From: Streptosporangium sp. NBC_01495
GTDB taxonomy: Bacteria > Actinomycetota > Actinomycetes > Streptosporangiales > Streptosporangiaceae
Direction: 5' to 3'
Length of the DNA stretch: 64,000 bases
Assembly (NCBI RefSeq): GCF_036250735.1
Contig: NZ_CP109430.1
Location: forward strand, 6,386,001 to 6,450,000
Shown here: in pieces, positions 17,486 through 48,444 of the stretch
How positions within the stretch are numbered: position 1 is the first letter of the stretch
Layout: every line of letters starts with the position of its first letter
Made by a program: the position numbers and the translations under genes
Notes under the pieces: generated by a model
What the model was told of the DNA's origin: nothing
Seen by the model: the letters and a program-made list of their open reading frames with translations, nothing else
Database searches by the model: none

Positions 17486-17486
17486 G

Positions 17487-19794: not shown

Positions 19795-19962
19795 GCGAAC
19801 CTCCTGAATTGCGGCCGTCCTTAAAGCATCCTTTCGGCACAATGTCAGCCCAACCCGAGCCCGTCAAGGCCCACATCCCCACCATCTCGCGACGCCGCCG
19901 ATCAGCCCATTCAGCCTTGACTCCGGCGAATAGACAAAGATACGCTCCCGAAATTCCGGCCT

Positions 19963-19982
19963 GCCGTTATCTAGACTACGGC
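19963..19982. promoter_or_regulatory. Candidate operator palindrome in divergent importer promoter
   Basis: In the 221-base gap between the binding-protein and permease genes, GCCGT and ACGGC flank a central CTAG with 3-base spacers on each side, giving a 20-bp imperfect palindrome. A possible promoter element TTGACT (19917-19922), 16 bases from GATACG (19939-19944), reads toward the permeases. A LacI-, GntR- or AraC-type dimer could bind here. This is a candidate only. Confidence 0.4.
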
Positions 19983-20015
19983 CCTCACAAATAGCGTTGA
20001 AGGGTGTTGGCGCCG

Positions 20016-26270: not shown

Positions 26271-29200
26271 ATGCTGGCAGCCCGGGATCTGCGGGTGACG
26301 GTCGTCGGCGCCGGACCGGTCGCTTGTCTGGTGGCGATCGAACTGCGGAAACGATCATTCGAGGTGAGTCTCTACGAGCGCGGCTCGGACGTGCGCCTGG
26401 CGGACGGAGCCCGAGGGCACTCGTTCAACCTGACCCTGACCAGGCGTGGGCTCACCTCGTTGGACGAACACATCGTGGACATGCTCTATCGCAACGGGGT
26501 CGTGCTGCCGCAGCGGGTCATCCACCACGTGGACGGGACGACGTCCTGCCAGCCCTACGGCACCGACCCCGACCTGCATCACCTGCTGTCGATCCCGCGG
26601 GGCCTGCTGCACGAGATGCTGCTCGACGAGGCCGAGAAGGCCGGGGCGAGGCTGAACTTCGGGTTCGAGTGCATCGGTGTCGAGCCCGGGTCGGGGTCGG
26701 CGACGTTCGTGGACGGCGGGGCGGGGATCGTGCGGACGAGCGCGGACCTGCTGATCGGCTGTGACGGCGCGAACAGCATCGTCCGCCACGAGATGTTCCG
26801 GCGCGGAGCGCAGATGCGGATCTCCCAGGACTACGTCGCCGACGGCTTCGTGGAGATCCGCATCCCCGCTCTCCCCGGCGGCGGCCACGCGCTGCTGGAC
26901 GCGGCGCGTGACCCGGACCGGCCGCGGCACACCCGGCACGGACTCCACATATGGCCCCGCGGCGAGTTCATGCTGCTCGCCCAGCCGAACGTGGACGGCT
27001 CGTACACCGCGGGCCTGTGGATGCCGCTGGTCGGCGGGGACGGCGAGGGCGGCGAGCGGCTCGGCTGGGATCGGGTGCGCACACCGCGAGCCGTGCGCGA
27101 GCTGTTCGAGTCGCACTTCCCCGACGTGGTGGACCTGGCCTCGTCGTACGCCGAGGACGTGCTCCAGTGGTCACCCGCCCCGCTGAAGACCGTGCGGTGC
27201 GATCCCTACCACCACGGCCGCACCGTGCTCATCGGCGACTCGGCGCACACCCTGGTGCCGTTCTTCGGCCAGGGCATCAACTGCAGCTTCGAGGACGTGC
27301 GGACCTTCTTCGCCATCTTCGACCGCAACCTCACCGAGACCGAGACCGGGCACGACGCCGCGACCGCTCTCGCCGCCACGCTGCCCGCCTACACCGAGTG
27401 GCGCAGGCCCGCGGGCGAGGCCATCGCCGACCTGTCGCTGGCGATGGCCTCGGAGCTCAAGGACCGCAGCGGGGACGTCGCGTTCCAGGCCCGCAAACGG
27501 CTGGAGAAGGAGCTTCACCTGCGGCACCCCGGGCTGTACGTGCCGCTCTACCACGCCGTGGCGTTCACCGACACCCCGTACCAGGACGCGGTGGCCCGCC
27601 ACGAGCGACACCGGGCGGTGCTCGACGAGCTGTGCTCGCGCCACGATCCCGCCGACGAGGTGGAGCTGATCATCGCGGAGTACGCGGAGGCGATCGGCCG
27701 CGTCACCCCCGGCCCGCGGAACGGGCGGCGGGCGGCGGGGGCCGGCCACCTCGTCCCCGACCCGCGAACCGGGCGGCACGTCGTTCCCGGCCCGCAGATG
27801 GAACGGAGCGTCGCTCCCGCCCCTCGGGTTGAACAGCACATCGTTCCCGGCCCGCAGATGGAACAGAGCGTCGCTCCCGCCCCTTGGGTTGAACAGCGCG
27901 TCGCTGCCGGCCCGCGAGCGGAGCGGTACCTCGCTCCCGGTCCTCGCGCGGAGCAGGGCGTCGTTCCCGCTCCTTCGGCGGAGCGGCGCGCGGCGGTGGC
28001 GCCGGGGACGGACCTGCACCTGGACTCGGCGCAGCAGAAGGAGCTGCTCGACGTCGTGGCGGCCCGTCTCATGGACTTCCACGAGGACCTGAGCAAGGGC
28101 AACCACCCCGCGTGGTACCGGGTCGCCGCCGCGGAGCCGCCGCGGGCCGAGCAGCGGGCCCCGCGTACCGGCACGGCCGTCGCCACCCTGCTGGACGAGA
28201 TCTTCGACTCCGCGCTCCCCGACGGGATGATGCACCCCCACCCCGGGTTCATGGCCCACGTGCCCTCGGGCGGGCTGTTCCAGGGGGCCGTCGGCGAGTT
28301 CGTGGCCCGCAGCCTCAACCGGTTCGCGGGCGCCTGGGCGGCCGCGCCGGGTTTCGCCCGGCTGGAGGCGAACGTCATCGACTGGTTCTGCTCGCTGATG
28401 GGATACGGCGAGGGCTCGTTCGGCTACCTGACCACGGGCGGGTCGATCGCGAACTTCATGGCGCTGCGGTGCGCGCTGGAACGCCTCCCGGAACACCAGC
28501 ACCACCGGGCGGCCGTGTACGTCTCAGAGCAGGGGCACTTCTCGGTGGCCAAGGCCGCGCGGCTGGCGGGCATCGGCGTCGGTGGGCACCGGACCGTGCC
28601 CACCGACGGCGCGTACCGCATGGACCTCGTCGCGCTGCGCGAGATGATCGAGCGGGACGTGCGGTACGGCACCCCGCCCGCCTGCGTGGTGGCCACCGCG
28701 GGCACCACGAACACCGGCGCGGTGGACGACCTGCGCGCCGTCGCCGCGCTGTGCCGCGAGCACGGTGTCTGGTTCCACGTCGACGCCTGCTTCGGCGGTT
28801 TCTTCCGCCTGACCCGGCGCGGGCGGGTGCTGCTCGACGGCATCGAGGAGGCCGACTCGATCGCGGTCGACGCGCACAAGTCGCTGTTCCTGCCGCACGG
28901 CAGCTCCGCGTTGCTGGTGAGGGACAAGACCACGCTCAAGCAGGCGTTCGCCATCCCGGACGCGGCCTACATCCCGGAGCTGTCACAGGACGACGACCGC
29001 CCCGACTTCATGGACTACGGCCCGGAGCTGACCCGCGAGTTCCGCGGCCTGACCGCGTGGCTGCCGATCAAGATGCACGGTATCAACGCCTTCGAGCGGT
29101 GCCTCGACGACAAGCTCGACCTCGCCGAGGACCTGGCCCGGCGGCTCGCCGCGGTGGACGGGATCGACATCGTCTCGCGGGGAGAGCCGCACCTGCCCAC

Positions 29201-29447
29201 GGTGGCGTTGAAGGTGCGCGCGGGCGACCCAGCCGACGCGAACGACGCGGCCGAGGCCGACCGGCTCACGGAGCGGGCCTGCGAGCTGATCTGCTCCCGG
29301 GGCAACGTCTACGTGGCGACCTCGGAGCTGCCGCACGAAGGGCACGTGATCCGCGCGTGCATCATGCACCACCAGACCGACGCCGGGGTCATCGACCGGT
29401 TCGTCGATGACGTCCGCTGGGCCCTGCGCAGGCTCGGAGAGGAGTAG
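26271..29447 (+). CDS. Fusion of kynurenine-3-monooxygenase-like FAD enzyme with PLP group II decarboxylase
   Basis: 1058 residues from ATG 26271, with GGGGAGGAG upstream. Residues 1-475 are a class A flavin monooxygenase: VVGAGPVA (about 11-18), IGCDGANSIVR, and GDSAHTLVPFFGQGINCSFED (about 322), the KMO-type FAD/substrate signature. Residues 493-572 are eight decapeptide repeats. Residues ~573-1058 are an aromatic-L-amino-acid decarboxylase-type enzyme: HPHPGFMAHVPSGG, TTGGSIANF, HVDACFGG and DAHKSLFLPHG with the PLP lysine at 870. KMO hydroxylates kynurenine at C3; the decarboxylase would convert an aromatic amino acid, possibly 3-hydroxykynurenine, to its amine. The substrate is inferred. 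It is the first gene of the operon with P450, trpE/trpG and DAHP synthase. Confidence 0.88.
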   Translation: MLAARDLRVTVVGAGPVACLVAIELRKRSFEVSLYERGSDVRLADGARGHSFNLTLTRRGLTSLDEHIVDMLYRNGVVLPQRVIHHVDGTTSCQPYGTDPDLHHLLSIPRGLLHEMLLDEAEKAGARLNFGFECIGVEPGSGSATFVDGGAGIVRTSADLLIGCDGANSIVRHEMFRRGAQMRISQDYVADGFVEIRIPALPGGGHALLDAARDPDRPRHTRHGLHIWPRGEFMLLAQPNVDGSYTAGLWMPLVGGDGEGGERLGWDRVRTPRAVRELFESHFPDVVDLASSYAEDVLQWSPAPLKTVRCDPYHHGRTVLIGDSAHTLVPFFGQGINCSFEDVRTFFAIFDRNLTETETGHDAATALAATLPAYTEWRRPAGEAIADLSLAMASELKDRSGDVAFQARKRLEKELHLRHPGLYVPLYHAVAFTDTPYQDAVARHERHRAVLDELCSRHDPADEVELIIAEYAEAIGRVTPGPRNGRRAAGAGHLVPDPRTGRHVVPGPQMERSVAPAPRVEQHIVPGPQMEQSVAPAPWVEQRVAAGPRAERYLAPGPRAEQGVVPAPSAERRAAVAPGTDLHLDSAQQKELLDVVAARLMDFHEDLSKGNHPAWYRVAAAEPPRAEQRAPRTGTAVATLLDEIFDSALPDGMMHPHPGFMAHVPSGGLFQGAVGEFVARSLNRFAGAWAAAPGFARLEANVIDWFCSLMGYGEGSFGYLTTGGSIANFMALRCALERLPEHQHHRAAVYVSEQGHFSVAKAARLAGIGVGGHRTVPTDGAYRMDLVALREMIERDVRYGTPPACVVATAGTTNTGAVDDLRAVAALCREHGVWFHVDACFGGFFRLTRRGRVLLDGIEEADSIAVDAHKSLFLPHGSSALLVRDKTTLKQAFAIPDAAYIPELSQDDDRPDFMDYGPELTREFRGLTAWLPIKMHGINAFERCLDDKLDLAEDLARRLAAVDGIDIVSRGEPHLPTVALKVRAGDPADANDAAEADRLTERACELICSRGNVYVATSELPHEGHVIRACIMHHQTDAGVIDRFVDDVRWALRRLGEE
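27747..27986 (+). repeat. Eight 30-bp in-frame repeats encoding a decapeptide linker
   Basis: Eight 30-base units (residues 493-572) encode variants of xVxPxPxxEx, for example HVVPGPQMER, SVAPAPRVEQ, HIVPGPQMEQ and YLAPGPRAEQ. Units 2 and 4, and units 3 and 5, are nearly identical, pointing to recent duplication of a 60-base pair of units. The Pro/Glu-rich array is a flexible or extended spacer joining the two enzyme domains. Confidence 0.9.
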
Positions 29448-29453
29448 AGGACG

Positions 29454-30767
29454 ATGCTGACCACCCCTGTACGACAGCTTCCCCCCGGCCCGGACGAGCC
29501 GGTCGCCGAGCAGCTCGCCGCGTTCGAAGGAGACCCGTTCGGGTGCGTCGAGCGGATGGCCCGGCGTTACGGCGACATGTTCACCCTGCGCCTGGGCGCG
29601 CTGGGCAACGAGGACCTCACCGCGGTCGAGCACGGCGGCGACTGGGTGTTCCTGACCCGGCCGGACCAGCTGAGGGTGATGTACGGCTCGGACGACCGGA
29701 CCAGTGGCGCCCTGGCCAACAAGGTGTTCTTCGGCACCGAGGAGGAGTCCGTCGGCTACATCGACGGCACCATGCACCGCAGGCGCCGCGCCCAGCTGCA
29801 CCCCGCCTTCAGCGGCAGCCGCGACTACGCCGCGATCACCGCGGACGCGGTCGACGCGCATGTGGCGCGGTGGCCGCGCGGGGTGCCGTTCGACCTGTTC
29901 ACCGCGTTGCAGGCGCTGACGAGCGACATCATCGTCGAGGTGGTCTGCGGGGGGATGAGCGCCGAGGACAAGGCCGGCCTCGCGGCGCTGCTGCTGCCCA
30001 TGGAGAACGCCGCGTGCGGGCGCGAGGAGGTCCTGCGGGCCGACCGGGCCGTGCGCGCCTTCGTCGACGAGCGCCTGCCCGGCCACCTGGAGCGCTGCGC
30101 GGAGGCGGGCGTGGACGACGTCTTCGCCGCCCTGCTCCGCCACGCCGCCGAGGGCGACGGGTCCCTGACCGACGAGGTGGTGCGGGACGAGGTGTTCAGC
30201 CTGCTGTACACCGGTTTCTCCACCACGGCCAACACGCTGTCCTGGACGTTCCTGCACGTGCTCGACGACGACCGGGTGCGCGCGGAGCTCGGCCGCGAAC
30301 TCGGTGACCGCTTCCGTTCCCGCCCGGTGCGCGCCCAGGACTTCCGCGGGCTCGACTACCTCGACGCCACGCTCATGGAGGCGTTGCGGCTGCACCCGGT
30401 CTCGGCGCTCAACGGGGTGCGCATGGTCGTCTCGCCGATGCGGCTCGGCGACTACGAGCTGCCGCCGGGGACGTTCCTGGTCCACTGCGCGTACCTGCTG
30501 CAGCGCGACCCGGACCTCTACCCCGACCCGTCGCTGTTCCGGCCGGAGCGGTTCGTGGACGCCTCGGTGGACCCCTACGTGTGGGGCGCGTTCGGCGGGG
30601 GCGCCCGCACCTGCGTGGGGCGCGGGTACGCCCGCGCGGAGATGCGCATGATCCTGGCGATGGTGCTGTCCTCGGTCCGCATGCGCGCGGCCGGGCCGAT
30701 CCCTCCCGCGCGGCAACAGGGGATCTTCATGGCGCCCGAGCGGACCCGATGCGCTGTCGAGGAGTAG
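29454..30767 (+). CDS. Cytochrome P450
   Basis: 437 residues, 6 bases after the fusion gene and preceded by GAGGAG. Heme-binding motif FGGGARTCVG has the ligand Cys at 387; EALR provides ExxR and FRPERF the meander. The I-helix reads TGFSTTANT, so the acidic residue of the usual (A/G)Gx(D/E)TT is Ser, which may alter proton delivery or indicate unusual chemistry. It is soluble, without a membrane anchor. It probably oxidises the aromatic amine product or the polyketide; which one cannot be told. No ferredoxin gene is in the operon. Confidence 0.9.
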   Translation: MLTTPVRQLPPGPDEPVAEQLAAFEGDPFGCVERMARRYGDMFTLRLGALGNEDLTAVEHGGDWVFLTRPDQLRVMYGSDDRTSGALANKVFFGTEEESVGYIDGTMHRRRRAQLHPAFSGSRDYAAITADAVDAHVARWPRGVPFDLFTALQALTSDIIVEVVCGGMSAEDKAGLAALLLPMENAACGREEVLRADRAVRAFVDERLPGHLERCAEAGVDDVFAALLRHAAEGDGSLTDEVVRDEVFSLLYTGFSTTANTLSWTFLHVLDDDRVRAELGRELGDRFRSRPVRAQDFRGLDYLDATLMEALRLHPVSALNGVRMVVSPMRLGDYELPPGTFLVHCAYLLQRDPDLYPDPSLFRPERFVDASVDPYVWGAFGGGARTCVGRGYARAEMRMILAMVLSSVRMRAAGPIPPARQQGIFMAPERTRCAVEE

Positions 30768-30773: not shown

Positions 30774-32246
30774 ATGACCTTTTCACACACGCGTGCCACC
30801 TTCGACCTGGACACCGTGCCCGGTTGTGCCGAGGCCGGGGCCCTGGCGGGCGACTACGCCGTCATCCCGGTGTACCGGGAGTTCCTGGCCGACGCGCTCA
30901 CCCCGATCACCGTGTTCGACCGGCTCTGCGGGCCTGACGACACCGGATTCCTGCTGGAGAGCGTGCCCGTCAGCGGTGACGTCGGCAGATACTCCTACAT
31001 CGGGCACCGCCCCCGGCTGCTGGACCCGCCGGTGGGCGACCCGCTGGCCGAGGCGCGCGGGATCGCCGCGACGCGGGCCGCCCCGGTGCCCGGGGTGCCG
31101 CCGTTCCACGGCGGGGTCGTCGGCTACCTCGGCTACGAGACCGCGAGCCGTTTCGAGCGCCTGCCGGTTCCGGCCGGGCCGGCGCCGGGCGTGCCGGAGT
31201 CGGCGTTCATGGCCGCGGAGGACATGGTGGTGTTCGACCACGCCACCCGCAAGCTGCTGGTGCTGACGCTGTACCGGCCCGACCGCGAGTCCTACGGGGA
31301 CGCCGTGGAGAGGCTGGACCGGATGGGCCTGTGCCTGCGGTCCGCGCCCTCGGCGCCCGACCTCGTCGGCCGGGCCGCGCGGTCGCGGCCCCGCGCCGCG
31401 CCGGACAGCGAGGGCTGGCACTCCAACGTCACCAGGGAGGAGTTCGAGCGGCGGGTCACCCGGGCGCGGGAGTACATCGCCGCGGGCGACGCGTTCCAGA
31501 TCGTGCTCTCGCAGCGGTTCTCCCGGCCGCTGCGCGTCACCCCGCTGGACCTGTACCGGCACCTGCGCGCGGTGAACCCGTCGCCGTACATGTACCACCT
31601 GAGCCTCGGCGGGGGACGTCACGTCGTGGGCGCCTCCCCGGAGCTGCTGGTGCGCACCGACGGCCGCACCGCCCGTACCAGGCCGCTGGCCGGATCCCGG
31701 CCCCGCGGAGCGAACCCGCACGACGACCTGGCGCTGGAGCGGGACCTGCGCGGTGACGCGAAGGAGCGCGCCGAGCACGTCATGCTGGTGGACCTGGGCA
31801 GGCACGACATCGGCCGGGTGTGCGCCCCCGGCACCGTGCGCGTGGAGCGCCTGATGGAGGTGGAGCGCTTCTCGCACGTGATGCACCTGTCCTCGACGGT
31901 GGCGGGAGAGCTGCTGCCGGAGGCGACCTGCCTGGACGCGCTGCGCTGGGCCTTCCCCGCCGGGACGCTGAGCGGGGCGCCGAAGATCCGCGCCATGGAG
32001 ATCATCGCCGAGCTGGAGACGGAGCGCCGCGGCGTGTACGGCGGCGCGATCGGCTTCGTCGGCGTCGGCGACACCGCCGACCTCGCCATCGGCCTGCGGA
32101 CCATGGTGATCGCCGACGACACGGTGTACGTCCAGGCGGGCGCGGGGATCGTGGCCGAGTCGGACCCGACCGCGGAGTATCTGGAGACGTTGCACAAGGC
32201 CAACGCGCTGTTCAGCGCGGTACGCGAGGCGGAGGCCACGACATGA
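30774..32246 (+). CDS. trpE: Anthranilate synthase component I
   Basis: 490 residues. It is chorismate-utilising: RPLAGSRPRG (about 302-311), DLGRHDIGRVC, FPAGTLSGAPK and YGGAIG. The PIAGT motif has Ser for Thr (PLAGS). The N-terminal LLES (about 60) and the NPSPYMYHL segment correspond to the tryptophan feedback site, so feedback control may be retained. With the following glutaminase it makes anthranilate from chorismate and glutamine. Aminodeoxychorismate or aminodeoxyisochorismate synthase is a less likely alternative given the overall TrpE-like motifs. Located between the P450 and trpG in a biosynthetic operon, it is likely a cluster-specific copy boosting anthranilate or tryptophan. Confidence 0.88.
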   Translation: MTFSHTRATFDLDTVPGCAEAGALAGDYAVIPVYREFLADALTPITVFDRLCGPDDTGFLLESVPVSGDVGRYSYIGHRPRLLDPPVGDPLAEARGIAATRAAPVPGVPPFHGGVVGYLGYETASRFERLPVPAGPAPGVPESAFMAAEDMVVFDHATRKLLVLTLYRPDRESYGDAVERLDRMGLCLRSAPSAPDLVGRAARSRPRAAPDSEGWHSNVTREEFERRVTRAREYIAAGDAFQIVLSQRFSRPLRVTPLDLYRHLRAVNPSPYMYHLSLGGGRHVVGASPELLVRTDGRTARTRPLAGSRPRGANPHDDLALERDLRGDAKERAEHVMLVDLGRHDIGRVCAPGTVRVERLMEVERFSHVMHLSSTVAGELLPEATCLDALRWAFPAGTLSGAPKIRAMEIIAELETERRGVYGGAIGFVGVGDTADLAIGLRTMVIADDTVYVQAGAGIVAESDPTAEYLETLHKANALFSAVREAEATT

Positions 32247-32327
32247 CCGCGACCCCCGGCGAGGCGGAGGCCATGACATGACCGCACCCCCCGGCGAGAT
32301 GGAGGCCACGACATGAGCGCGTCCCCC
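32226..32327 (+). repeat. Triplicated 35-bp RBS-start unit with two mini-ORFs between trpE and trpG
   Basis: Three 35-base units (32226-32260, 32261-32295, 32296 to about 32327) each carry GGAGG, a 7-base spacer and ATG. The trpE stop overlaps the first ATG (ATGA at 32243). Mini-ORF 1 (32243-32281, MTATPGEAEAMT) ends in an ATGA overlap with mini-ORF 2 (32278-32316, MTAPPGEMEATT), which in turn overlaps the trpG ATG (32313). Because 35 is not a multiple of 3, each unit is in a different frame. Translation may pass through two extra re-initiation steps. Confidence 0.85.
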
Positions 32328-32885
32328 AAGGTGGCCGTGATCGACAACTACGACTCCTTCACCTACAACCTGGTCCACTACCTGGCCGAACTCGGCGCCG
32401 CGGTGTCGGTGTTCCGCAACGACGAGACGACGATCGGCGGGCTGGCCCGCCACGACATGCTGGTGATCTCCCCCGGCCCCCGCACCCCCGCCGAGGCCGG
32501 CCTGTCGGCACCGGCCGCGCGGGCGCTCACCGGCCGGATGCCGGTGCTGGGCGTCTGCCTGGGCCACCAGGGCATCGCCGCGGCGTACGGCGCCGAGGTG
32601 GTGCGGACGGCCCCGATGCACGGCAGGGCCTCGACGATCAGGCACGACGGCACGGGCGTCCTGTCCGGGCTGCCCAATCCGTTCACCGCCACCCGGTACC
32701 ACTCGCTGGCGGTGGACCACGCGACCCTGCCCGACGAGCTCGTGCCCACCGCGTGGACCGACGACGGCGTGCTGATGGGGCTGCGTCACCGGTCGCACCC
32801 GACCTTCGGCGTCCAGTTCCACCCGGAGTCCGTGCTCACCCCCATGGGAAAGCGGCTCATGGCGAACTTCCTGAGGAGCGGGTGA
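32313..32885 (+). CDS. trpG: Anthranilate synthase component II (glutamine amidotransferase)
   Basis: 190 residues from ATG 32313. It is a class I glutaminase: NYDSFTYNL near the start, nucleophile Cys in GVCLGHQG, and His/Glu in FHPESVLT. It supplies ammonia to the TrpE subunit. The first four codons (MSAS) align with the starts of the two preceding mini-ORFs (MTAT, MTAP), showing that those arose by duplication of this start. It is a separate polypeptide, not fused to component I as in PhzE-type enzymes. Confidence 0.92.
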   Translation: MSASPKVAVIDNYDSFTYNLVHYLAELGAAVSVFRNDETTIGGLARHDMLVISPGPRTPAEAGLSAPAARALTGRMPVLGVCLGHQGIAAAYGAEVVRTAPMHGRASTIRHDGTGVLSGLPNPFTATRYHSLAVDHATLPDELVPTAWTDDGVLMGLRHRSHPTFGVQFHPESVLTPMGKRLMANFLRSG

Positions 32886-32926
32886 CCGGCCCGCCGGGAG
32901 CACCGCGCCCCCGTGTCCCCTTTGAC

Positions 32927-32971
32927 TTCCGTGGCCTTCGTGACCTTCGTGGCTTCCGTGGTCCCCGTGGC
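32927..32971 (+). repeat. Five 9-bp tandem repeats downstream of trpG
   Basis: Five degenerate 9-base units (TTCCGTGGC, CTTCGTGAC, CTTCGTGGC, TTCCGTGGT, CCCCGTGGC) lie in the 182-base gap between trpG and the DAHP synthase gene. They follow the trpG stop and are non-coding. The remainder of the gap holds GC-rich sequence with the palindromic words GCGATCGC and GCGATCGCGC, and no clear promoter. Confidence 0.75.
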
Positions 32972-33067
32972 CGCCCGCGAGGTTCCGGTGGCCGAGAACG
33001 GCGATCGCGACGCGTCACCCGAGAGCGGACGCGATCGCGCAGATCTGGTGAAGGAGTTGTCAGCGGC

Positions 33068-34489
33068 ATGCAGATGATTGATGTTCCGACCCTTGGTGCC
33101 CCTCCCCCGCCGTCGGCCCGTACCGGTGCGCACCTGCCGCCGTCCGGCTGGCGTCCGGACTCCTGGCGCGGGCTGCCCATCTCCCAGCAGCCCGACTGGG
33201 CCGACCCCGGCGGGCTGGGCCGCGTCCTCGGCGAGATCTCCCAGCTTCCGCCGCTGGTGCTGCCCGGCGAGATCGAGGACCTGCGGGCGGGGCTCGCCCG
33301 CGTCGCGGACGGCCGCGCCTTCTTCCTGCAGGCGGGTGACTGCGCGGAGCGATTCGGCTCCTGCATCGAGAACGGGGTGCGCGGCAAGCTCCGGCTGATC
33401 CTGCAGCTGGCGATCCTGCTGTCCTACGGCTCCGGCCTGCCGGTGGTCAAGGTCGGCCGGATCGCCGGGCAGTTCGGCAAGCCGCGCAGCAGCCCGACCG
33501 AGATCATCGACGGCGTCGAGCTGCCCGTCTACCGGGGCGACATCGTCAACGACACGGCACCCACCCGGGCCGCCCGCACCCCGGACGTCGAACGGCTGCG
33601 CAGCGCCTACCACCACGCGTCGGCGACGCTGAACGTGCTGCGCGCCCTCCTGCGGGAGGGCTTCGCCGACCTGGAGCGGGTGCACGCCGGAAACCAGGAG
33701 TTCGTACGGCGCAACCCGGCGGCCCGGCAGCACGAGGGCGTCGCCGCCGACATCGCGTGGGCGCTGCGCTTCATGGCCGCGTGCGGCGCGGAGAGGACGG
33801 ACCGGAGCGCGCCGCAGGACCACCTCTACACCTCGCACGAGGCGCTGCTGCCCGGCTGGGAGGAGGCGCTGACCCGTCCCGACGCCGAGACGGGGGCCTG
33901 GTACGGCACCAGCGCCCACATGCTGTGGGTGGGCCACAGGACCCGCGGGCTCGACGGCGCGCACATCGAGTACCTGTCCGGGATCGCGAACCCGATCGGG
34001 GTGAAGATAGGACCGGACGTCACGCCCACCGAGCTGCGGCTGCTGTGTGAGCGGCTGGACCCCGGCCACGCGCCCGGCAGGCTGGTGCTGATCAGCAGGC
34101 TGGGCGCCGACCGGGTACTCGACCTGCTTCCGCCGCTGGTTCACGAGATCCGCGCCACCGGGCGGCCGGTGGTGTGGGCCTGTGACCCCATGCACGGCAA
34201 CACCTTCCGCTCGCGGAGCGGTTACAAGACGAGGCGGCTGTCGGACATCACCCGCGAGATCGCGGGGTTCTTCGCCGTGCACCGGGCCGCGGGCACCTTC
34301 CCCGGCGGCATCCACCTCGAACTGAGCGGCGACGACGTCACCGAGTGCCTCGGCGGGGCGGAGGAGGTGCTCGACATCCACCTCGGGCACCGGTACGAGA
34401 CCGCGTGCGACCCACGGCTGAACGCCGGCCAGTCCATCGAGCTGGCCTTCGCCGTGGCGCGGCTGCTGCGGCGGCACTGCGCGACCTGA
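33068..34489 (+). CDS. Class II 3-deoxy-D-arabino-heptulosonate 7-phosphate (DAHP) synthase
   Basis: 473 residues. Start ATG 33068, with AAGGAG 11 bases upstream; ATG 33074 is an alternative. Class II (plant/PhzC-type) motifs are FFLQAGDCAERF, KVGRIAGQFGKPRS, YTSHEALLPGWEE, GTSAHMLWVGHRTR, WACDPMHGNT and GGIHLELSGDDVTECLGG. It condenses phosphoenolpyruvate with erythrose-4-phosphate, the first step of the shikimate pathway. As the last gene of the operon it provides extra flux toward chorismate for the anthranilate synthase. A duplicate DAHP synthase inside a cluster is a classic sign of aromatic precursor demand. Confidence 0.93.
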   Translation: MQMIDVPTLGAPPPPSARTGAHLPPSGWRPDSWRGLPISQQPDWADPGGLGRVLGEISQLPPLVLPGEIEDLRAGLARVADGRAFFLQAGDCAERFGSCIENGVRGKLRLILQLAILLSYGSGLPVVKVGRIAGQFGKPRSSPTEIIDGVELPVYRGDIVNDTAPTRAARTPDVERLRSAYHHASATLNVLRALLREGFADLERVHAGNQEFVRRNPAARQHEGVAADIAWALRFMAACGAERTDRSAPQDHLYTSHEALLPGWEEALTRPDAETGAWYGTSAHMLWVGHRTRGLDGAHIEYLSGIANPIGVKIGPDVTPTELRLLCERLDPGHAPGRLVLISRLGADRVLDLLPPLVHEIRATGRPVVWACDPMHGNTFRSRSGYKTRRLSDITREIAGFFAVHRAAGTFPGGIHLELSGDDVTECLGGAEEVLDIHLGHRYETACDPRLNAGQSIELAFAVARLLRRHCAT

Positions 34490-34584: not shown

Positions 34585-35592
34585 TCAGGCCGCGCGTCCC
34601 CGGGGCGGCACGGCCTCCGAGCCGGGCGGCGGACCCGGCGGGGTGCCGTCCCCGAACGGCCTGCCGCCGAGACCCTCGCGGCCGTGCGAGGTGAGCCAGC
34701 CGGACAGGTCCGGGCCGCCGGGCACGATGTGATGGGGATTGTTCTCGTCCAGAACGATGTGGTAGTGGCGCTTGATGTGGTCGAAGTCGACCGTGTCGCC
34801 GAAGCCGGGGGTCTGGAACAGGTCACGGGCGTACGCCCACAGCGCCGGCATCTCCGTCAGCTTCGATCGATTGCACCGGAAGTGCCCGTGGTAGACCACG
34901 TCGAAGCGCACCAGCGAGGTGAACAGCCTGATGTCGGCCTCGGTGATCGTGTCGCCGACCAGGTAGCGGCGGGTCCGCAGCCGCTCCTCCAGCGCGTCCA
35001 GGCGGGCGAACAGCGCGTCGTAGGCCCGCGAGTACGCCTCCTGGGTGGTGGCCATGCCCGCCTCGTACACCCCGGCGTTGACGTCGTGGAAGACGTGCTC
35101 GTTCAGCTCGTCGATCTCCGCGCGCAGCGGCTCGGGGTACAGGTCCGGGGCGCCGGGGCGGGCGAGGGCCGTCCACTGGGTCGCCAGGTCCAGGGTCATC
35201 CTGTCGAAGTCGTTGGTGACCAGGCGCCGGGTGTCCACGTCGACCAGCGCGGGAACGCTGAACCCGCCGTCGTAGTCCGCGTCGGCGGCCAGATACGCCT
35301 CGCTGAGGTGGCGGTAGCCGAGGACGGGATCCCTGCCGTCCGGGCCTAGGGCGAAACTCCAGCCGCGGTCGTCCTGGATGGGGTCGACGACGGCCAGCGA
35401 GATCGCGTCCTCCAGGCCGAGCAGCCTGCGGCTCACCACGGCCCTGCTTGCGAACGGGCACGCGCGGCTCGCGACCAGCCGGTAGCGATGCGGTTCTGCG
35501 GGCCAGGCAGAGCCCGGATCCGCGGTGATCCGGGCGTCGAAGCGGCTGGGAGACATCACGGATTCGGACTCTGCGCTCAATTCGGGCTCCAT
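34585..35592 (-). CDS. Glutathionyl-hydroquinone reductase-like (xi-class GST) protein
   Basis: 335 residues from ATG 35592; ATG 35556 (323 residues) is a good alternative, and neither has a strong ribosome-binding site. It has a thioredoxin-like N-terminal domain with CPFASR (usually CPWAHR), so the catalytic Cys is kept while the next residues differ, followed by a helical C-terminal domain (YLVGDTITEADIRLFTSLVRFDVVYHGHFRCN). The family reduces S-conjugates of hydroquinones. Actinomycetes normally use mycothiol rather than glutathione, so the thiol partner is uncertain. It is last in the epimerase-MFS-GST operon and fits quinone or quinone-imine handling in the pathway. Confidence 0.85.
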   Translation of the reverse strand: MEPELSAESESVMSPSRFDARITADPGSAWPAEPHRYRLVASRACPFASRAVVSRRLLGLEDAISLAVVDPIQDDRGWSFALGPDGRDPVLGYRHLSEAYLAADADYDGGFSVPALVDVDTRRLVTNDFDRMTLDLATQWTALARPGAPDLYPEPLRAEIDELNEHVFHDVNAGVYEAGMATTQEAYSRAYDALFARLDALEERLRTRRYLVGDTITEADIRLFTSLVRFDVVYHGHFRCNRSKLTEMPALWAYARDLFQTPGFGDTVDFDHIKRHYHIVLDENNPHHIVPGGPDLSGWLTSHGREGLGGRPFGDGTPPGPPPGSEAVPPRGRAA

Positions 35593-38586: not shown

Positions 38587-39717
38587 TCACCCCGTGGCGG
38601 AGGTCCGCTTGATCCCGCTGATCACCCCGTGCGGGGTCCAGGTCTCCCCCGGAAGCCTGCGCACCTCGTCGAACCCCGTCTCGCGCATCCACCGCTCATA
38701 GTGGCTCCAGCTGTAGATCATGCTGCGCGGCGCGGTGAGCGTGGCGAAGTAGGCGTTGTCCAGCGCCGAGTAGAGCGGTCCTTCGCCGGTGTCACTGGAC
38801 ATCACGTTGAACACCATCACCCTGCCGCCCTCGGGCAGTGCCGCGTGCGCCTTGCGCAGCAGGCCGAGATTCTGCTCCGGGGACCAGATGACCAGCTGGT
38901 TGGCGAACAGCACCGCGTCGTGGCCCTGGGGGTACGGGTCGTTGAAGATGTCGCCCACCCACACGTCGATGCGGTCGCTCAGCCCGTTGTCGGCGATCTT
39001 GCGCCGGGCGATGTCCACCGCGCCCGGCAGGTCGAGCACGGTGAACCCGACCCCGGGGTTGGCGCGGGCCAGCTCGATCGCGTTCACCCCGTCGCCGCCG
39101 CCGACGTCGAGCACCCGGCGCACCCCGGTGAGGTCCGCCTTGGCGACCAGGACCGGGTTGGACAGCAGCGACCAGGAGCGCATGCAGCGGTAGAACAACC
39201 GCTCCAGCTCCGGCGTCTCGGGCAGCCGGTGGTACAGGTCGTCGCCCGTCCCCGCGAACCGGGCCAGCCCGGCGTTGGTGTTCTCCCGCAGCGACTCGAC
39301 GAGGTCGGCCAGCGGAAGGTATACGAGCCTGGCCTGGAAGGCGACGATGTCGGCCAGGACCTCCCAGGAGCCGTCCTCGAACATCTCCTGGATCACCGCG
39401 CAGTTGCGGTAGCGCCCGCCGGTCACCTCGGTGAGCCCGAGAGCGGTGACGCCGAGCAGCAGGATCTCCGTCGGCCGCGGGCCCAGCCCGAGCAGGTCGC
39501 CGACGTCCTCGGCGGCGAGCTCGTCCTTGTCGCGCAACAGGGCGAACAGGCCCAGCTCGCAGCCCGCGTTGAGCATCTGGAACGCCGCCGCCCCGAACAG
39601 CGGGCCGACGAGATCCTCACGTGACCGCACCTTCCGGGGGCCGTGAGGGTTCTCAGCGTTCTCAGCGTTCTCGGCGTTCTCAGCGTTCTTGGGGTTCTTG
39701 GGGTTCTCAGGGGACAC
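38587..39717 (-). CDS. SAM-dependent O-methyltransferase (AdoMet_MTase with dimerisation domain)
   Basis: 376 residues with GTG 39717 as start, preceded by GGAGG 8 bases away; upstream codons lie within or beyond the aldo/keto reductase gene. N-terminal residues ~3-24 are a low-complexity ENPKNPKNAEN run from 9-bp repeats. Then comes a dimerisation winged helix (AGCELGLFALLRDK) and the SAM-binding core VLDVGGGDGVNAIELA, with later VLFANQLVIWS and GGRVMVFNVM. It resembles small-molecule O-methyltransferases of natural product pathways; relatives include 3-hydroxykynurenine C-methyltransferases, so C- versus O-methylation is open. It is 35 bases downstream of the aldo/keto reductase in the same operon. 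Confidence 0.85.
   Translation of the reverse strand: MSPENPKNPKNAENAENAENAENPHGPRKVRSREDLVGPLFGAAAFQMLNAGCELGLFALLRDKDELAAEDVGDLLGLGPRPTEILLLGVTALGLTEVTGGRYRNCAVIQEMFEDGSWEVLADIVAFQARLVYLPLADLVESLRENTNAGLARFAGTGDDLYHRLPETPELERLFYRCMRSWSLLSNPVLVAKADLTGVRRVLDVGGGDGVNAIELARANPGVGFTVLDLPGAVDIARRKIADNGLSDRIDVWVGDIFNDPYPQGHDAVLFANQLVIWSPEQNLGLLRKAHAALPEGGRVMVFNVMSSDTGEGPLYSALDNAYFATLTAPRSMIYSWSHYERWMRETGFDEVRRLPGETWTPHGVISGIKRTSATG
39649..39711 (-). repeat. Seven 9-bp in-frame repeats at the methyltransferase N-terminus
   Basis: Seven tandem 9-base units (GTTCTCAGC and variants on the plus strand) encode repeated Asn-Ala-Glu or Asn-Pro-Lys triplets. Unit length is a multiple of three, so copy-number change would keep the frame. 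Confidence 0.85.
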
Positions 39718-39752: not shown

Positions 39753-40589
39753 TCACGACACGTCGAACAGCGTGCCGGGGACGGGATGGCATCTCTGCTC
39801 GGTGCCCAGGTCGTCCAGCCGTGCCATCTGGGACTCGTCGAGGGTGAAGTCGAACACCTGGATGTTGGCGCGGATGCGCTCGGGCTTGGCCGACTTCGGG
39901 ATGACGACGATGTCGTGCTGCAGGTGCCACCGCAGCACGACCTGCGCGGGGGTCCGGTCGCACTCCCGGGCGATCTCCACCGCCGTGGGGTGCTGGAGCA
40001 GTCCCTGGTCACGGCCGATGGGGCTCCAGGCCTGCGTCACGATGCCGCGTTCGGCGTGCGCCGCGCGCAGCTCGTGCTGCGGGTACAGGGGGTGCAGCTC
40101 GATCTGGTTGATCGAGGGCACCACGGAGCACTCCTCGGCCAGCCGGTCGAGCTCGGCGACGCCGAAGTTCGACACGCCGATCGACCGGACGCGGCCGTCG
40201 GCCCGCAGCCTCTCGAACGCCCGCCAGCTGTCCACGTACCGGTTCAGCGCGGGGCGCGGGAAGTGGATCAGGTACAGGTCGAGGTGGTCGAGGCCGAGCC
40301 TGGCCATGCTCTCGTCGAAGGCCCGCATGGTCTCGTCGTAGCCGTGGGCGTCGTTCCACAGCTTGGTGGTGACGAAGAACTCCTCGCGCGAAACCTCGCT
40401 GTTGGCGATCGCCTTTCCGACTCCGGCCTCGTTCTGGTAGGCGGCGGCGGTGTCGATGAGGCGGTAGCCCTCTTCGATCGCCGTCGTCAGCGGCTCCACC
40501 ACCTGGTCGGCGGGGATGAGGAACACCCCGTACCCGAGCCGCGGGATGGACACGCCATCGTTGAGGGGCACATGCGGGATCGTGGTCAC
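39753..40589 (-). CDS. Aldo/keto reductase
   Basis: 278 residues from GTG 40589, with AGGAAGGA upstream at a slightly long distance. The (beta/alpha)8 AKR tetrad is complete: Asp46 and Tyr51 (LIDTAAAYQNE), Lys76 (VTTKLW) and His109 (LIHFP). The C-terminal IPKSAKPERIRAN binds the NADPH phosphate. It reduces a carbonyl, for example an aryl ketone or aldehyde of the aromatic unit or polyketide. Gaps of 33 and 35 bases to its neighbours indicate one operon with the flavin monooxygenase and methyltransferase. Confidence 0.92.
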   Translation of the reverse strand: MTTIPHVPLNDGVSIPRLGYGVFLIPADQVVEPLTTAIEEGYRLIDTAAAYQNEAGVGKAIANSEVSREEFFVTTKLWNDAHGYDETMRAFDESMARLGLDHLDLYLIHFPRPALNRYVDSWRAFERLRADGRVRSIGVSNFGVAELDRLAEECSVVPSINQIELHPLYPQHELRAAHAERGIVTQAWSPIGRDQGLLQHPTAVEIARECDRTPAQVVLRWHLQHDIVVIPKSAKPERIRANIQVFDFTLDESQMARLDDLGTEQRCHPVPGTLFDVS

Positions 40590-40622: not shown

Positions 40623-41846
40623 TCAGGAGTAGCGGCCGGGCTCGGGCACCTCGTCGAGAAGCTGGTACAGGCCGACCTCGCGGCGCTGGTAGGCCACCGG
40701 GTGATGCAGCGTGTGGGTGCGGGCGTTGCGCCAGAACCGGTCGAAGCCGAACCGGTTCGCGGTGGAGCGGGCCCCGGTGACCTCGAAGATCCGTGAGGTG
40801 ACCTCGAGCGCCACCTCGTCGGCCCGCGCCTTCACCGCCGCGGTCCGCACCTTGTACTCGCCGCGGATCCGGGGGGTGACCGAGTCGGGGTCGCGGTGCA
40901 GCGCCATGCCCTCCTCGGCGACCTGGTCGGCCAGCGCCTCGGCGGCCCAGAGCTTGGCGGTCAGGTCGCCGATGGTGTCCTGGACGCGGGGCTCGTCGAC
41001 GGTGCGCTCGTACCCGCCCCAGCCCCGGCCTGTCTGGGTGTACTCGATCGCGGCGCGCAACGCGCCGCCGGCCACGCCCAGCCAGATGTTGCAGAACAGG
41101 AGCTGGCCGGTCGGCACGTTCGTGGTCGCGTAGGTGCGGGGGGTGAACACCTTGTCCCGGTAGCCCAGCGCGTCCTCCCAGGGCACCCTGACGTCGCGGA
41201 TGGTGATCCCGCCGCTCTCGGTCAGGCGCTGGCCCATGTTGTCCCAGTTGTTGTGGTGGACGATGCCCGGCTGGTCGGTGGGCACGACGGCCAGCACGTG
41301 GTCCTTGCCGTTCAGCACCCCTTCCAGCACCGTGTGGTCGGAGACCTTCACCCCGGTGCAGAAGTGCTTGCTGCCGTTGAAGACCAGGTGGTCGCCCTCG
41401 TCCGTGGCGACCACGTCGGCGTCGCGCGGGTTGAGGGCGCACCCGAAGAACCAGTTGCCTCGGGTGGCCTCGATCTCCAGCCGCCGGATCTGCTCCGCGG
41501 TGCCCAGCCACCGGGGCAGCCAGCACCACGTGTAGTGGTCGCCCAGCAGCTGGCCGATCGACCCGTCCGCCGAGGCGACGGCCCGCACGACCCGGTAGGC
41601 CGTCGGCCATTCCTGGCCGGCGCCGCCGTGCTCCACGGGACCGAAGATCGGTACCAGTCCCGACTCCTTGAGAATCCGGATCTCCTCGTGCGGCGTCCGG
41701 TTGGCGCGGTCACGTTCGGCCGCGCCGACGCTCAGCACGTCGGCCACCTCCCGGGCGCGGTCGATCCAGTCCGTCGGCGTGTTCGGCCTGGCCGACCAGT
41801 CCGGCCGGGGTATGGACCCTGCGGGGGCGGGCGTGGTGATGGTCAC
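40623..41846 (-). CDS. Two-component FMNH2-dependent monooxygenase (DszC/SfnC-like, acyl-CoA dehydrogenase fold)
   Basis: 407 residues from GTG 41846 with AAGGAG upstream. It has the acyl-CoA dehydrogenase fold with the features of flavin monooxygenases such as DszC/TdsC and sugar N-oxygenases: GGAGQEWPTAYRVVRAVASADGSIGQLLGDHY, FNGSKHFCTG, and the C-terminal RNARTHTLHHPVAYQRREVG with the His pair near the flavin. Such enzymes use reduced flavin from a partner reductase, encoded here two genes upstream, to oxidise S, N or C atoms. N-oxidation of an aromatic amine or hydroxylation are both plausible. A true acyl-CoA dehydrogenase is less likely because the usual catalytic Glu context is absent. 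Confidence 0.85.
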   Translation of the reverse strand: MTITTPAPAGSIPRPDWSARPNTPTDWIDRAREVADVLSVGAAERDRANRTPHEEIRILKESGLVPIFGPVEHGGAGQEWPTAYRVVRAVASADGSIGQLLGDHYTWCWLPRWLGTAEQIRRLEIEATRGNWFFGCALNPRDADVVATDEGDHLVFNGSKHFCTGVKVSDHTVLEGVLNGKDHVLAVVPTDQPGIVHHNNWDNMGQRLTESGGITIRDVRVPWEDALGYRDKVFTPRTYATTNVPTGQLLFCNIWLGVAGGALRAAIEYTQTGRGWGGYERTVDEPRVQDTIGDLTAKLWAAEALADQVAEEGMALHRDPDSVTPRIRGEYKVRTAAVKARADEVALEVTSRIFEVTGARSTANRFGFDRFWRNARTHTLHHPVAYQRREVGLYQLLDEVPEPGRYS

Positions 41847-41878
41847 GTTCTCTCCTTGAGGTGTCGAGGGGGGACGGG

Positions 41879-42112
41879 GACGCCGGGGCGCCGGGACGGT
41901 CGGACCGCCGGGGCGACGGCGTCGTCCAGCGGGTGTCTCCGGCGGCCGGCTCACGGGTGTGGCCCACGATCGGCTCGCGGGTGTCTCCGGCGGCCGGGCC
42001 GCGGATCTCCGCGGTGGCCGGACGCGGTGGCCAGACCAGGGCGTCTCCGGGGCCGGGCCGCAGGTCTCCGCGGTGGCCGGACGCGATGACCGGACCGGGG
42101 TGTCTCCGGTGG
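41879..42112. repeat. Degenerate direct repeats in the monooxygenase leader
   Basis: The 266-base gap between the SnoaL-like gene and the monooxygenase contains repeated words such as GCGGGTGTCTCCGGCGGCC (about 41929 and 41976), TCTCCGCGGTGGCCGGACGC (about 42007 and 42067) and further GTCTCCGG copies. The pattern resembles an eroding minisatellite with units of about 45-60 bases. No gene or promoter was seen in it. Confidence 0.65.
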
Positions 42113-42523
42113 TCAGACCGCGGGCCGCGTGGTGCCGTGCGGGTTGTCGATGACCGAGCGCCAGAGGCCGTCGGCACCGCGCCGGATGACGTCGGTGCTG
42201 GTGCCCTCCATCCGCATGTGGCCGCCGCCGGGACCGGCGCCCTCCACGACCCAGTCGGCGATGATCAGCGCGATGTCGTCCGCGACGTAGACGTGGCGGT
42301 CGCGGATGTCCATGGGCAGCCCGAGCGCGAGGAAGTCGGCGATGGCCTTGCTCGCCTCGCCGCCGGTGACGGGATCACCGGGTCCGCGGACGAACACCGC
42401 GCCGTCCGCCAGACCAGCCTCGACGGCGGCCACGTCACCGGAGTTGAAGGCGCGGCGGAAGTTCTCGGTGTGCTGGTACGGGTCGGAGACCGGGGCGAAG
42501 GTGCTCCTCGTCGAGCTGGTCAT
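42113..42523 (-). CDS. SnoaL/NTF2-like protein
   Basis: 136 residues with the cone-shaped NTF2-like pattern: helix HTENFRRAFNSGDVAAVEAGLADGAVFV, then strands with MDIRDRHVYVADDIALIIADWVVEGAGPGG and a terminal DGLWRSVIDNPHGT. In natural product clusters SnoaL-like proteins act as cyclases, hydroxylases, epimerases or accessory proteins; others of the DUF4440 type are uncharacterised. It starts 10 bases after the flavin reductase, so it is co-translated with it. The function is open. Confidence 0.8.
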   Translation of the reverse strand: MTSSTRSTFAPVSDPYQHTENFRRAFNSGDVAAVEAGLADGAVFVRGPGDPVTGGEASKAIADFLALGLPMDIRDRHVYVADDIALIIADWVVEGAGPGGGHMRMEGTSTDVIRRGADGLWRSVIDNPHGTTRPAV

Positions 42524-42533: not shown

Positions 42534-43139
42534 TCATGACATTCGGTGGCTCGCTGTTTCCGCGGTCAACGCGGGCCGGTGGCGGTGCCCCGCGGAGGCG
42601 GGTCCCGCGATGTCCGCGGGGACGGGCTCGTGCGGTTCCGGCCACACCGAGTAGCGGCGCAGCCCGTACAGCAGTGGGCGGCGCGACTCCCGGCGCAGCA
42701 CGCGCTGGACCGCGCCCATCACGACGGTGTGGTCGCCGACCCGGTCGGCGCGCGACACCAGGCAGTCGGCTATGGAGTGGGCGTCCCGCACCAGGTGCGG
42801 GCCGCACGCCCCGCCGTCGACCGTCCACTCGGCGCGCTCGAAGCGGCGCGGATCGCCGGAGGCGAACAGCTCGGCCGTCGGCCGGGCGTTGTGGTCGAGA
42901 AGATTGAGGGTGAACCGCCGGGCGGCGAGCACCGCCGCCAGGGTCGGGCTGGCGTTGCGCACGCACACCAACAGGGTGGGCGGGGCGAGGGTGACACTGC
43001 AGACCGACGAGCAGGTTATGCCTTTGGGACTGCCGTCAGCGGAGACGACCGTCACGACCGCCACCCCGGTGGGGAAGCCCGCCATCAGGGCGCGGAAGTC
43101 ATCCTGGCCGGTCTGGTTCGTACTCGGTGCTTCGCGCAT
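42534..43139 (-). CDS. Flavin reductase (HpaC/ActVB-type)
   Basis: 201 residues with the start at ATG 43139. The FMN-binding split-barrel is evident: FPTGVAVVTVVSADGSPKGITCSSVCSVTLAPPTLLVCVRNAS, FTLNLLDHN and an RADRVGDHTVVMGAVQRV strand, all typical of NAD(P)H:flavin oxidoreductases that serve two-component monooxygenases. The C-terminal ~25 residues are an Arg/His/Ala-rich extension. It is the first gene of the leftward tailoring operon, 84 bases downstream of a SARP-type promoter, and should supply FMNH2 to the DszC-like enzyme. Confidence 0.9.
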   Translation of the reverse strand: MREAPSTNQTGQDDFRALMAGFPTGVAVVTVVSADGSPKGITCSSVCSVTLAPPTLLVCVRNASPTLAAVLAARRFTLNLLDHNARPTAELFASGDPRRFERAEWTVDGGACGPHLVRDAHSIADCLVSRADRVGDHTVVMGAVQRVLRRESRRPLLYGLRRYSVWPEPHEPVPADIAGPASAGHRHRPALTAETASHRMS

Positions 43140-43222
43140 GTGATACCGCCTCTGCTGGCCGGGAGCGCCGGTCCGGACCGTACGCGACGACGTCCGGGAA
43201 CCGCCTGCAATCACGTGAGCTC

Positions 43223-43358: not shown

Positions 43359-43976
43359 TCACGCGGTCGCGGCTCGCAGCGGCTTGAGCGCCCCGGCGAT
43401 CCGGGCGAAGCGGGCACCGTGGTATTCGGCGGCGGCGTACACGTGCTTGGCCAGGTCCTCGTCGCCGTCGCGGATGCTGATGCCGTACGGGTTGCCGCCC
43501 GCGGCGTGGATGAGGTCGTAGTCGGCGTATCCGGTGGGGACGATGATCGAGCCCCAGTGGTGCATCACGTTGTAGAGGGCGACCAGGGTGGTCTCCTGCC
43601 CCCCGTGGACCTCGTAGCTGCTGGTGAATCCGGTCGCCGCCTTGCCGGTCAGCTCGCCCTCCTGCCAGATCTTGCCGGTCATGTCGAGGAACTGCTTGAG
43701 CTGGGAGCTGACGTTGCCGAAGCGGGTGGGCGTGCCGAAGGCGAAACCGTCGGCCCAGACGAGATCGTCGACGGTGGCCTCCTCGATGTGCGCGGTGGCG
43801 TCACAGTGGTCCCGCCAGGCCGGGTTGGAGTCGATCGCCGAACGGGGCGCCAGCTCGGGAACGCGGCGCAGCCGGACCTCCGCCCCCGCCGAGGCGACGC
43901 CACAGGCCAGGGCCTCGGCGAGCGCGTGCACGTTTCCCGTCGCCGAGTAGTAGATCACTGCGATTCGGATATTCAT
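43359..43976 (-). CDS. WrbA-like NAD(P)H:quinone oxidoreductase
   Basis: 205 residues from ATG 43976 with GAGAGGTGG upstream. Flavodoxin fold: FMN phosphate loop YYSATGNVHALA (usually YSxTGhxxxla), ADGFAFGTPTRFGNVSSQLKQFLDMTG, and the WrbA-typical SSYEVHGGQETTLVALYNVMHHWGSIIVPTGY. It carries out two-electron reduction of quinones, avoiding semiquinone radicals. It is 92 bases downstream of the SARP gene on the same strand and may be co-transcribed. With the hydroquinone-reductase-like protein it suggests a quinone, quinone-imine or aminophenol intermediate in the pathway (inference). Confidence 0.9.
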   Translation of the reverse strand: MNIRIAVIYYSATGNVHALAEALACGVASAGAEVRLRRVPELAPRSAIDSNPAWRDHCDATAHIEEATVDDLVWADGFAFGTPTRFGNVSSQLKQFLDMTGKIWQEGELTGKAATGFTSSYEVHGGQETTLVALYNVMHHWGSIIVPTGYADYDLIHAAGGNPYGISIRDGDEDLAKHVYAAAEYHGARFARIAGALKPLRAATA

Positions 43977-47155: not shown

Positions 47156-47189
47156 GTCGCCCGGGTCTCCGATCGGAGACCCGGGCGAC
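47156..47189. terminator. 34-bp perfect palindrome downstream of the Pro-rich protein gene
   Basis: Arms 47156-47170 and 47175-47189 are perfectly complementary around a self-complementary GATC. It lies 122 bases past the stop of the leftward gene ending at 47311. It is probably a terminator; the full palindromy would also allow cruciform formation or protein binding. Confidence 0.6.
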
Positions 47190-48435: not shown

Positions 48436-48444
48436 GAAATGACA

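Follow-up and report, generated by a model that had tools for sequence, protein, structure and literature searches.

What does a bacterium make with a kynurenine monooxygenase (KMO)-like enzyme that is joined, in one polypeptide, to an aromatic amino acid decarboxylase? The question is raised by a gene of Streptosporangium sp. NBC_01495 within a 64,000-nucleotide stretch of contig NZ_CP109430.1 (positions 6,386,001 to 6,450,000; hereafter the window, with positions counted from its first letter). An earlier note on this DNA had proposed that the fusion channels kynurenine through 3-hydroxykynurenine to 3-hydroxykynurenamine, an amine that could close to a dihydroxyquinoline or prime a polyketide. 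We arrive at a related reading, to which we assign a probability of about 0.6: the fusion would turn a kynurenine-type amino acid into an aromatic amine, with a methylation between hydroxylation and decarboxylation. We infer every substrate, product and reaction order in this reading from the architecture, homology, catalytic residues and conserved context, which are observed.

The frame opens with an ATG at 26271, directly behind a purine-rich GGGGAGGAGACGCG, and runs on the plus strand with no internal stop to a stop codon that ends at 29447. Its parts are:

26271..29447, plus strand: fusion of a KMO-like protein and a group II pyridoxal phosphate (PLP) decarboxylase, 1058 amino acids (open reading frame, profile and structure matches, ortholog alignment)
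26271..27683, plus strand: KMO-like half, residues 1-471; R82, Y96 and Y427 correspond to Arg84, Tyr98 and Tyr404 of P. fluorescens KMO, and M392 replaces Asn369
27684..28013, plus strand: repetitive Pro/Ala/Val-rich linker, residues ~472-581, with tandem units of 30 bp and 60 bp
28014..29444, plus strand: decarboxylase half, with H756, D838, K870 (PLP lysine) and Y900 (loop tyrosine)

Residues 7-471 resemble solved KMOs (best structure match 6lkd, E 9.2e-63), align with KMOs over nearly their full length and include both the flavin adenine dinucleotide (FAD) domain and the C-terminal helical domain of the full-length fold. Residues ~612-1057 resemble group II PLP decarboxylases (4obu, E 3.8e-58; PF00282, E 2.5e-55). 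The two halves were modelled separately and compared with known structures. KMO structures were the top matches of the first model (mean predicted local distance difference test score 88.3), with template modelling (TM) scores, by query length, of 0.79-0.84 against P. fluorescens and rat KMO; decarboxylase structures were the top matches of the second (mean 83.2), with TM scores, again by query length, of 0.78-0.81 against R. gnavus tryptophan decarboxylase. The uninterrupted 1058-codon frame with two complete domains, as the earlier note described it, is thus borne out by reading frame, domain and structure matches. A VioC-like identity for the first half was rejected, the model match being weak.

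The fusion is unlikely to be an assembly artefact, since an independent genome, that of Actinosynnema sp. ALI-1.44, has the same fusion in one open frame, 60% identical to that of the window. This was the one homologous fusion found: a scan over GTDB species genomes, which relied on six exact 8-residue patterns, confirmed 348 relatives, and among the best 80 of these the Actinosynnema protein matched both halves and the other 79 matched the KMO half only. At strict E-values, no further fusion was found in the 100, 396 and 394 genomes examined; within the DNA compared, none of the 30 loci fetched for the decarboxylase half has a KMO-like stretch and none of the 89 fetched for the KMO half has a decarboxylase. 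Much of the ~100-residue linker consists of in-frame tandem repeats (units of 30 bp and 60 bp, 27776-27990); G+C content at third codon positions is 0.81 there as against 0.93 and 0.96 in the halves, and nearly the whole linker is absent from the Actinosynnema ortholog.

The two activities also occur side by side. Matches were found in 404 plasmid records, and in two of these they span 80% or more of the query. In Streptomyces sp. 3211 (NZ_CP020040.1, locus L148) the halves are annotated as two adjoining genes in different frames, and in Embleya sp. NBC_00896 (L149), where the record has no annotated gene, the two frames share a register, with one TGA and 99 nt between them. The second Embleya frame opens with an ATG behind AAGGAACCACC; two genes are the natural reading of this pair, which may alternatively be an interrupted fusion. 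After the Streptomyces pair come a P450, a member of the acyl-CoA dehydrogenase family, a cupin, an alkene reductase, DUF3500 and an epoxide hydrolase; a nonribosomal peptide synthetase (NRPS) gene lies upstream.

The 394 class-level genomes gave, apart from the host, two with an unfused KMO-like relative at E 1e-80 or better: G657 and G519, both of the host's family. The G657 locus (L153/L154) has a kynureninase (Pfam), a tryptophan 2,3-dioxygenase (TDO), a gene for a methyltransferase of the SibL type discussed below, an AMP-binding/carrier protein and, adjoining the KMO-like gene, a 1480-aa AMP-ligase-like protein. It looks like a sibiromycin-type pyrrolobenzodiazepine (PBD) cluster, on a comparison with what we take to be the content of the sibiromycin cluster. 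G519 (L155/L156), whose cluster is likewise sibiromycin-like, has counterparts of the G657 kynureninase (49% identical), SibL-type gene and both large proteins; no TDO counterpart was found in the 40 kb compared. G657 also has an ABC protein that matches a UvrA domain weakly. Among 396 phylum-level genomes, 23 besides the host match at E 1e-85 or better, all via the decarboxylase half and some with part of the linker; these genomes, all 4 Mb or smaller, hold a decarboxylase subfamily (L026-L039) 37-44% identical to the second half.

Both halves of the paired proteins form well-supported groups. In a midpoint-rooted tree of six KMO-like proteins and 19 of 89 comparison KMOs, the six (two fused, two split, and those of G657 and G519) fall together with 100/100 support; the four paired decarboxylases (two fused, two split) do so likewise in a tree of their own, also at 100/100. 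The KMO tree supersedes an earlier one that lacked PBD-like rows and had a very distant outgroup; there the fusions fell beside two Bacteroidota KMOs (84/85). Because the two fused proteins are each other's nearest in both families, the trees fit one fusion event after pairing.

The second half has the features of an aromatic-type PLP decarboxylase, an assignment supported by family-typical sequence, predicted fold and catalytic residues, in agreement with the earlier note. H756, D838 and the PLP lysine K870, which that note had seen, are conserved in 31 of 31 decarboxylase rows, so that PLP lysine, stacking histidine, aspartate and loop tyrosine are all present; the loop tyrosine, Y900, is found in 30 of 31, the exception being a gap. 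We placed it at Y900 from alignments together with the residue roles and human numbering that we assume for the family. An assignment to Y916, which is tyrosine in 17 of 29 rows, was dropped. Short rows (L008, L126) were left out of the first decarboxylase tree and long-branch rows (L006, L007, L123, L124, L125) out of the second; these five were restored for the 31-row count.

The genes around the fusion, and the level of identity to their counterparts, are:

29454..30767, plus strand: cytochrome P450, 6 nt after the fusion; 61% identical in Actinosynnema, 46% in Streptomyces 3211
30774..32246, plus strand: anthranilate synthase component I, TrpE-like, 6 nt after the P450; best model below its curated cut-off
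32313..32885, plus strand: glutamine amidotransferase, TrpG-like
32753..34489, plus strand: class II 3-deoxy-D-arabino-heptulosonate 7-phosphate (DAHP) synthase (open reading frame; true start probably downstream of TrpG)
34585..35556, minus strand: glutathione S-transferase (GST)-fold protein, 67-68% identical in Actinosynnema
38587..39717, minus strand: SibL-type 3-hydroxykynurenine C4-methyltransferase (putative); the open frame extends to 39963, and the GTG at 39717 behind GGGAGGAG is the likely start
39753..40589, minus strand: aldo/keto reductase, 63% in Actinosynnema
40623..41954, minus strand: DszC-like flavin monooxygenase, 62% in Actinosynnema
42113..42523, minus strand: SnoaL-like protein, 47% in Actinosynnema
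42534..43214, minus strand: flavin reductase; nearest models HsaB, RutF, StyB and HpaC, all below cut-off
43359..43976, minus strand: WrbA-type NAD(P)H:quinone oxidoreductase, 63% in Actinosynnema; passes curated NCBIfam cut-offs
44069..46183, minus strand: BTAD/NB-ARC regulator, 51% in Actinosynnema

The Actinosynnema cluster shares the fusion, P450, TrpE, TrpG, DAHP synthase, GST-fold protein, methyltransferase (63% identity), aldo/keto reductase, DszC-like monooxygenase, SnoaL-like protein, WrbA and BTAD regulator, and the shared sub-cluster ends at ~46.2 kb of the window. Actinosynnema has in addition TrpD, TrpC, TrpA and a TrpB-like gene, and thus, beside the fusion, a whole tryptophan operon (TrpE, G, D, C, A and the TrpB-like gene) together with DAHP synthase. 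The WrbA and GST-fold proteins hint at quinone chemistry; we liken the latter, presumptively, to glutathionyl-hydroquinone reductases. Elsewhere in the window, 13757-20993, left of the cluster, resembles a sugar-uptake locus (heparinase II/III-like, two amidohydrolase, Gfo/Idh/MocA, solute-binding and ABC permease genes), and a 1488-aa frame at 2555-7021 (minus strand) has only a weak Golvesin C-terminal domain match.

The methyltransferase is the neighbour that speaks most directly to the substrate. Its match to SibL, the sibiromycin enzyme that methylates 3-hydroxykynurenine at C4 (E 2.2e-123, 337 residues without a gap), far exceeds that to the next protein (1.6e-27), and an O-methyltransferase label, from Pfam, was dropped after this match. 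An excerpt of PMC4426599 names 13 SibL residues for substrate binding or catalysis and describes SibL as binding the amino-acid tail of its substrate and not using 3-hydroxyanthranilate. Of the residues named in that excerpt, 12 of 13 are kept in the window and Actinosynnema enzymes, including Tyr134, Tyr295, Asp132 and the tail contacts Tyr288, Asp292 and His335; Tyr99 is Phe in both, as it is in the G657 and G519 methyltransferases. Given how SibL recognises its substrate, the window enzyme most likely methylates 3-hydroxykynurenine itself, before decarboxylation. The methyltransferase provides independent support for a kynurenine-type substrate of the fusion, and together with the co-clustered tryptophan operon of Actinosynnema strengthens the substrate class that the earlier note had put forward. 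The fusion is the only KMO-like match in the Actinosynnema genome, where seven other first-half matches are short and weak (best E 3.0e-6; true KMO paralogs of the Streptosporangium host score 1e-49 to 1e-58). If the methyltransferase receives 3-hydroxykynurenine there, the fusion is therefore its likely source.

We propose the following route. The cluster's own DAHP and anthranilate synthases would raise the supply of tryptophan, which the genome's TDO would convert to kynurenine. The KMO-like half would hydroxylate C3, giving 3-hydroxykynurenine; the SibL-type neighbour would methylate C4 of the free amino acid; and the PLP half would decarboxylate the 4-methyl form to 3-hydroxy-4-methylkynurenamine, a decarboxylase taking the place held by kynureninase in sibiromycin-type pathways. 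Further modification of the amine, probably via a hydroquinone/quinone stage, would fall to the P450, DszC-like monooxygenase, quinone reductase, GST-fold protein and aldo/keto reductase. Consistent with a functional pair, the KMO-like protein and decarboxylase are fused (window, Actinosynnema) or neighbouring (Streptomyces 3211, Embleya). An excerpt of PMC8295276 reports the conversion of 3-hydroxykynurenine to 3-hydroxykynurenamine, a biogenic amine in mammals. Of the product named in the earlier note we thus retain a kynurenamine-type amine, the likely compound bearing an extra methyl group. Channelling of 3-hydroxykynurenine now appears doubtful, and we reject a fixed-interface form of it, since the ortholog has almost none of the linker and a methylation probably intervenes. 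With methylation probably falling between its two reactions, a fixed ratio of the two enzymes is a better account of the fusion than a channel.

A modular polyketide synthase (PKS) on the minus strand extends from 48445 to ~64 kb past the right edge of the window; by domain count it comprises a loading unit and 13 further ketosynthase (KS) modules. Within this PKS stretch (48445-64000 and L022-L025) are DegT aminotransferase, UDP-glucose dehydrogenase, epimerase-family and methyltransferase genes, and we infer from the sugar genes a sugar of the aminopentose type. The first KS of the first PKS protein lacks the DTACSS motif, and this PKS seems to bring a loading module of its own. In the 160 kb covered around the Actinosynnema cluster, a single KS-acyltransferase (KS-AT) protein was detected, ~36 kb from the fusion, and no modular PKS. 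For these two reasons, a role of the amine as polyketide primer, suggested in the earlier note, is doubtful. A kynurenamine-type unit unrelated to the PKS, with two independent clusters that touch, is compatible with the proposed route, and we put it slightly short of an even chance. The end of the shared sub-cluster at ~46.2 kb and the single KS-AT protein in the Actinosynnema region speak for it; the gap to the PKS of just 2.3 kb (46183 to 48445), with both stretches biosynthetic, speaks against it. In that gap, a 308-aa frame at 47311-48237 (minus strand) has no Pfam match.

Several observations weigh against kynurenine as the substrate and against the generality of the route; the first concern the pocket. 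Residues of P. fluorescens KMO (pfKMO) were mapped onto the fusion by an alignment whose chain counts one below the usual numbering, an offset fixed on what we take to be His320; a length filter removed none of the 89 comparison rows. According to an excerpt of PMC6376250, pfKMO contacts the substrate carboxylate through Arg84, Tyr98, Tyr404 and Asn369, with Leu213, Ile224, Leu226, Phe238 and Met373 near the ring. The first three contacts are kept in the fusion (R82, Y96, Y427), as in 89 of 89 KMOs and all six group members. Asn369, invariant in the 89 KMOs, is replaced by Met in the two fusions (Met392 in the window) and by His in the two split proteins. The next position, occupied by Phe or Tyr in every one of the 89, holds Ala and Arg in the two fusions; the split proteins, G657 and G519 have Leu there. 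In the ring pocket, the four paired proteins and G657 have Gln for Leu226. Because the PBD-like relatives G657 and G519 keep Asn369 and the paired proteins do not, the decarboxylase-paired form may have changed its substrate. Homology alone does not establish kynurenine as the substrate of the first half, given the altered pocket of this KMO relative. The earlier note's KMO identity stands by sequence, fold and tree, and gives way at the pocket, which is not that of a plain KMO: that note had named the loss of key KMO substrate residues as counting against it, and of the four carboxylate contacts one is gone and three remain.

The remaining points concern context. No SibL-like gene is present at the split loci (~43 kb examined), and the Embleya locus shares neither the P450 nor any other cluster gene, bar a short-chain dehydrogenase/reductase at 32%; neither methylation nor the wider context is thus general across paired loci. 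TDO is present in both genomes, with every genome-wide match outside the two fusion clusters, as are all kynureninase matches, including both in the host. The formamidase model gave nothing above its cut-off in either genome, which says little, as it gave nothing in any of 14 control genomes either. The host also has three other KMO paralogs, possible suppliers of 3-hydroxykynurenine. One of them (L002/L145, G000:C1:7182698-7185147) has Asn369 and adjoins a kynureninase outside the cluster; the other two, L003 and L004, group together. Away from its fusion cluster, Actinosynnema has two divergent TDO-like frames with a weak formamidase-like match nearby (G489:C46:561046-566488).

These paralogs, and the loss of Asn369 in the four decarboxylase-paired proteins but not in the two PBD-like ones, would suit a hydroxylation that is reversed or comes later. 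The PLP half would then act first or in mid-route, and the KMO-like half would hydroxylate kynurenamine, or add a second hydroxyl (e.g. at C5) to 3-hydroxy-4-methylkynurenine or its amine, the 3-hydroxyl coming from another enzyme. We consider this unlikely: the carboxylate contacts Arg84, Tyr98 and Tyr404 are kept in all six proteins, and Actinosynnema, with the fusion as its only KMO-like match, would need a different class of enzyme for 3-hydroxylation.

A lower probability still attaches to a tryptophan route, in which tryptophan is hydroxylated, by the KMO-like half or the P450, and then converted by the PLP half to a hydroxytryptamine on the way to an indolequinone. Both clusters have genes for tryptophan supply and all TDO matches lie elsewhere, the solved structures nearest the PLP half are those of tryptophan decarboxylase (4obu/4obv), and the first half has a weak model match to VioC of the violacein pathway. 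However, the conserved SibL-type methyltransferase, with its 3-hydroxykynurenine pocket, would then have no role, and the tree group of the KMO half includes genes from two PBD-like clusters, which hold a kynureninase in G657 and its 49% counterpart in G519.

It is very unlikely that the PLP half instead performs, for example, an oxidative deamination to an aldehyde that closes to the dihydroxyquinoline of the earlier note, the kind of reaction carried out by aromatic acetaldehyde synthases of the same fold (6eei, a phenylacetaldehyde synthase, is among the matches), since Y900 is conserved and in plant enzymes Phe at the place of the loop tyrosine marks aldehyde synthases.

Returning to the proposed route of hydroxylation, C-methylation and decarboxylation, its furthest extension is a speculative one that we regard as rather doubtful: an undescribed bacterial tryptophan branch in which KMO-type hydroxylation, SibL-type C-methylation and decarboxylation lead through 3-hydroxy-4-methylkynurenamine to an aminoquinone or quinolinequinone, joined in the host to a large polyketide with an aminopentose. 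If the route itself is correct, 3-hydroxykynurenine would have a further fate in antibiotic biosynthesis, besides kynureninase cleavage and transamination, and natural products a possible new aromatic-amine building block. A KMO-like gene fused to or beside a decarboxylase, with a related P450 after it in three of four cases, would be a handle for finding related clusters. The route predicts a concrete, assayable intermediate, and the pocket change that accompanies pairing with a decarboxylase would make this KMO relative a testable case of substrate shift. We found no report of a bacterial KMO-decarboxylase fusion, or of kynurenine decarboxylation in a bacterial cluster, among the matches listed from the open-licence literature.

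Compared with known systems, the first half resembles the KMOs of P. fluorescens, rat and human in fold, full-length alignment and Arg84/Tyr98/Tyr404, but differs in the replacement of Asn369 and the aromatic residue after it, in Leu226 to Gln, in its separate tree group and in its fusion to a decarboxylase. The second half has the fold and catalytic residues of group II PLP decarboxylases such as R. gnavus 4obu and the Pseudomonas 3,4-dihydroxyphenylalanine (DOPA) decarboxylase 7xin, but is ~28% identical to them and lies C-terminal to a flavin hydroxylase. The lateral pathway to 3-hydroxykynurenamine in mammalian cells has the same core chemistry as the decarboxylation considered here; it is eukaryotic, and the excerpt of PMC8295276 names no decarboxylase, fusion or C4 methylation. 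With the sibiromycin-type PBD pathway the window shares a SibL-type C-methyltransferase and a KMO-like protein that groups with those of two PBD-like clusters. No NRPS domains, as for a PBD dipeptide core, were found by Pfam among the subset of window frames scanned. In the sibiromycin pathway the partners of SibL are presumably a KMO and a kynureninase; the latter, present in G657, is missing from the window cluster, where the KMO-like protein is fused to a decarboxylase.

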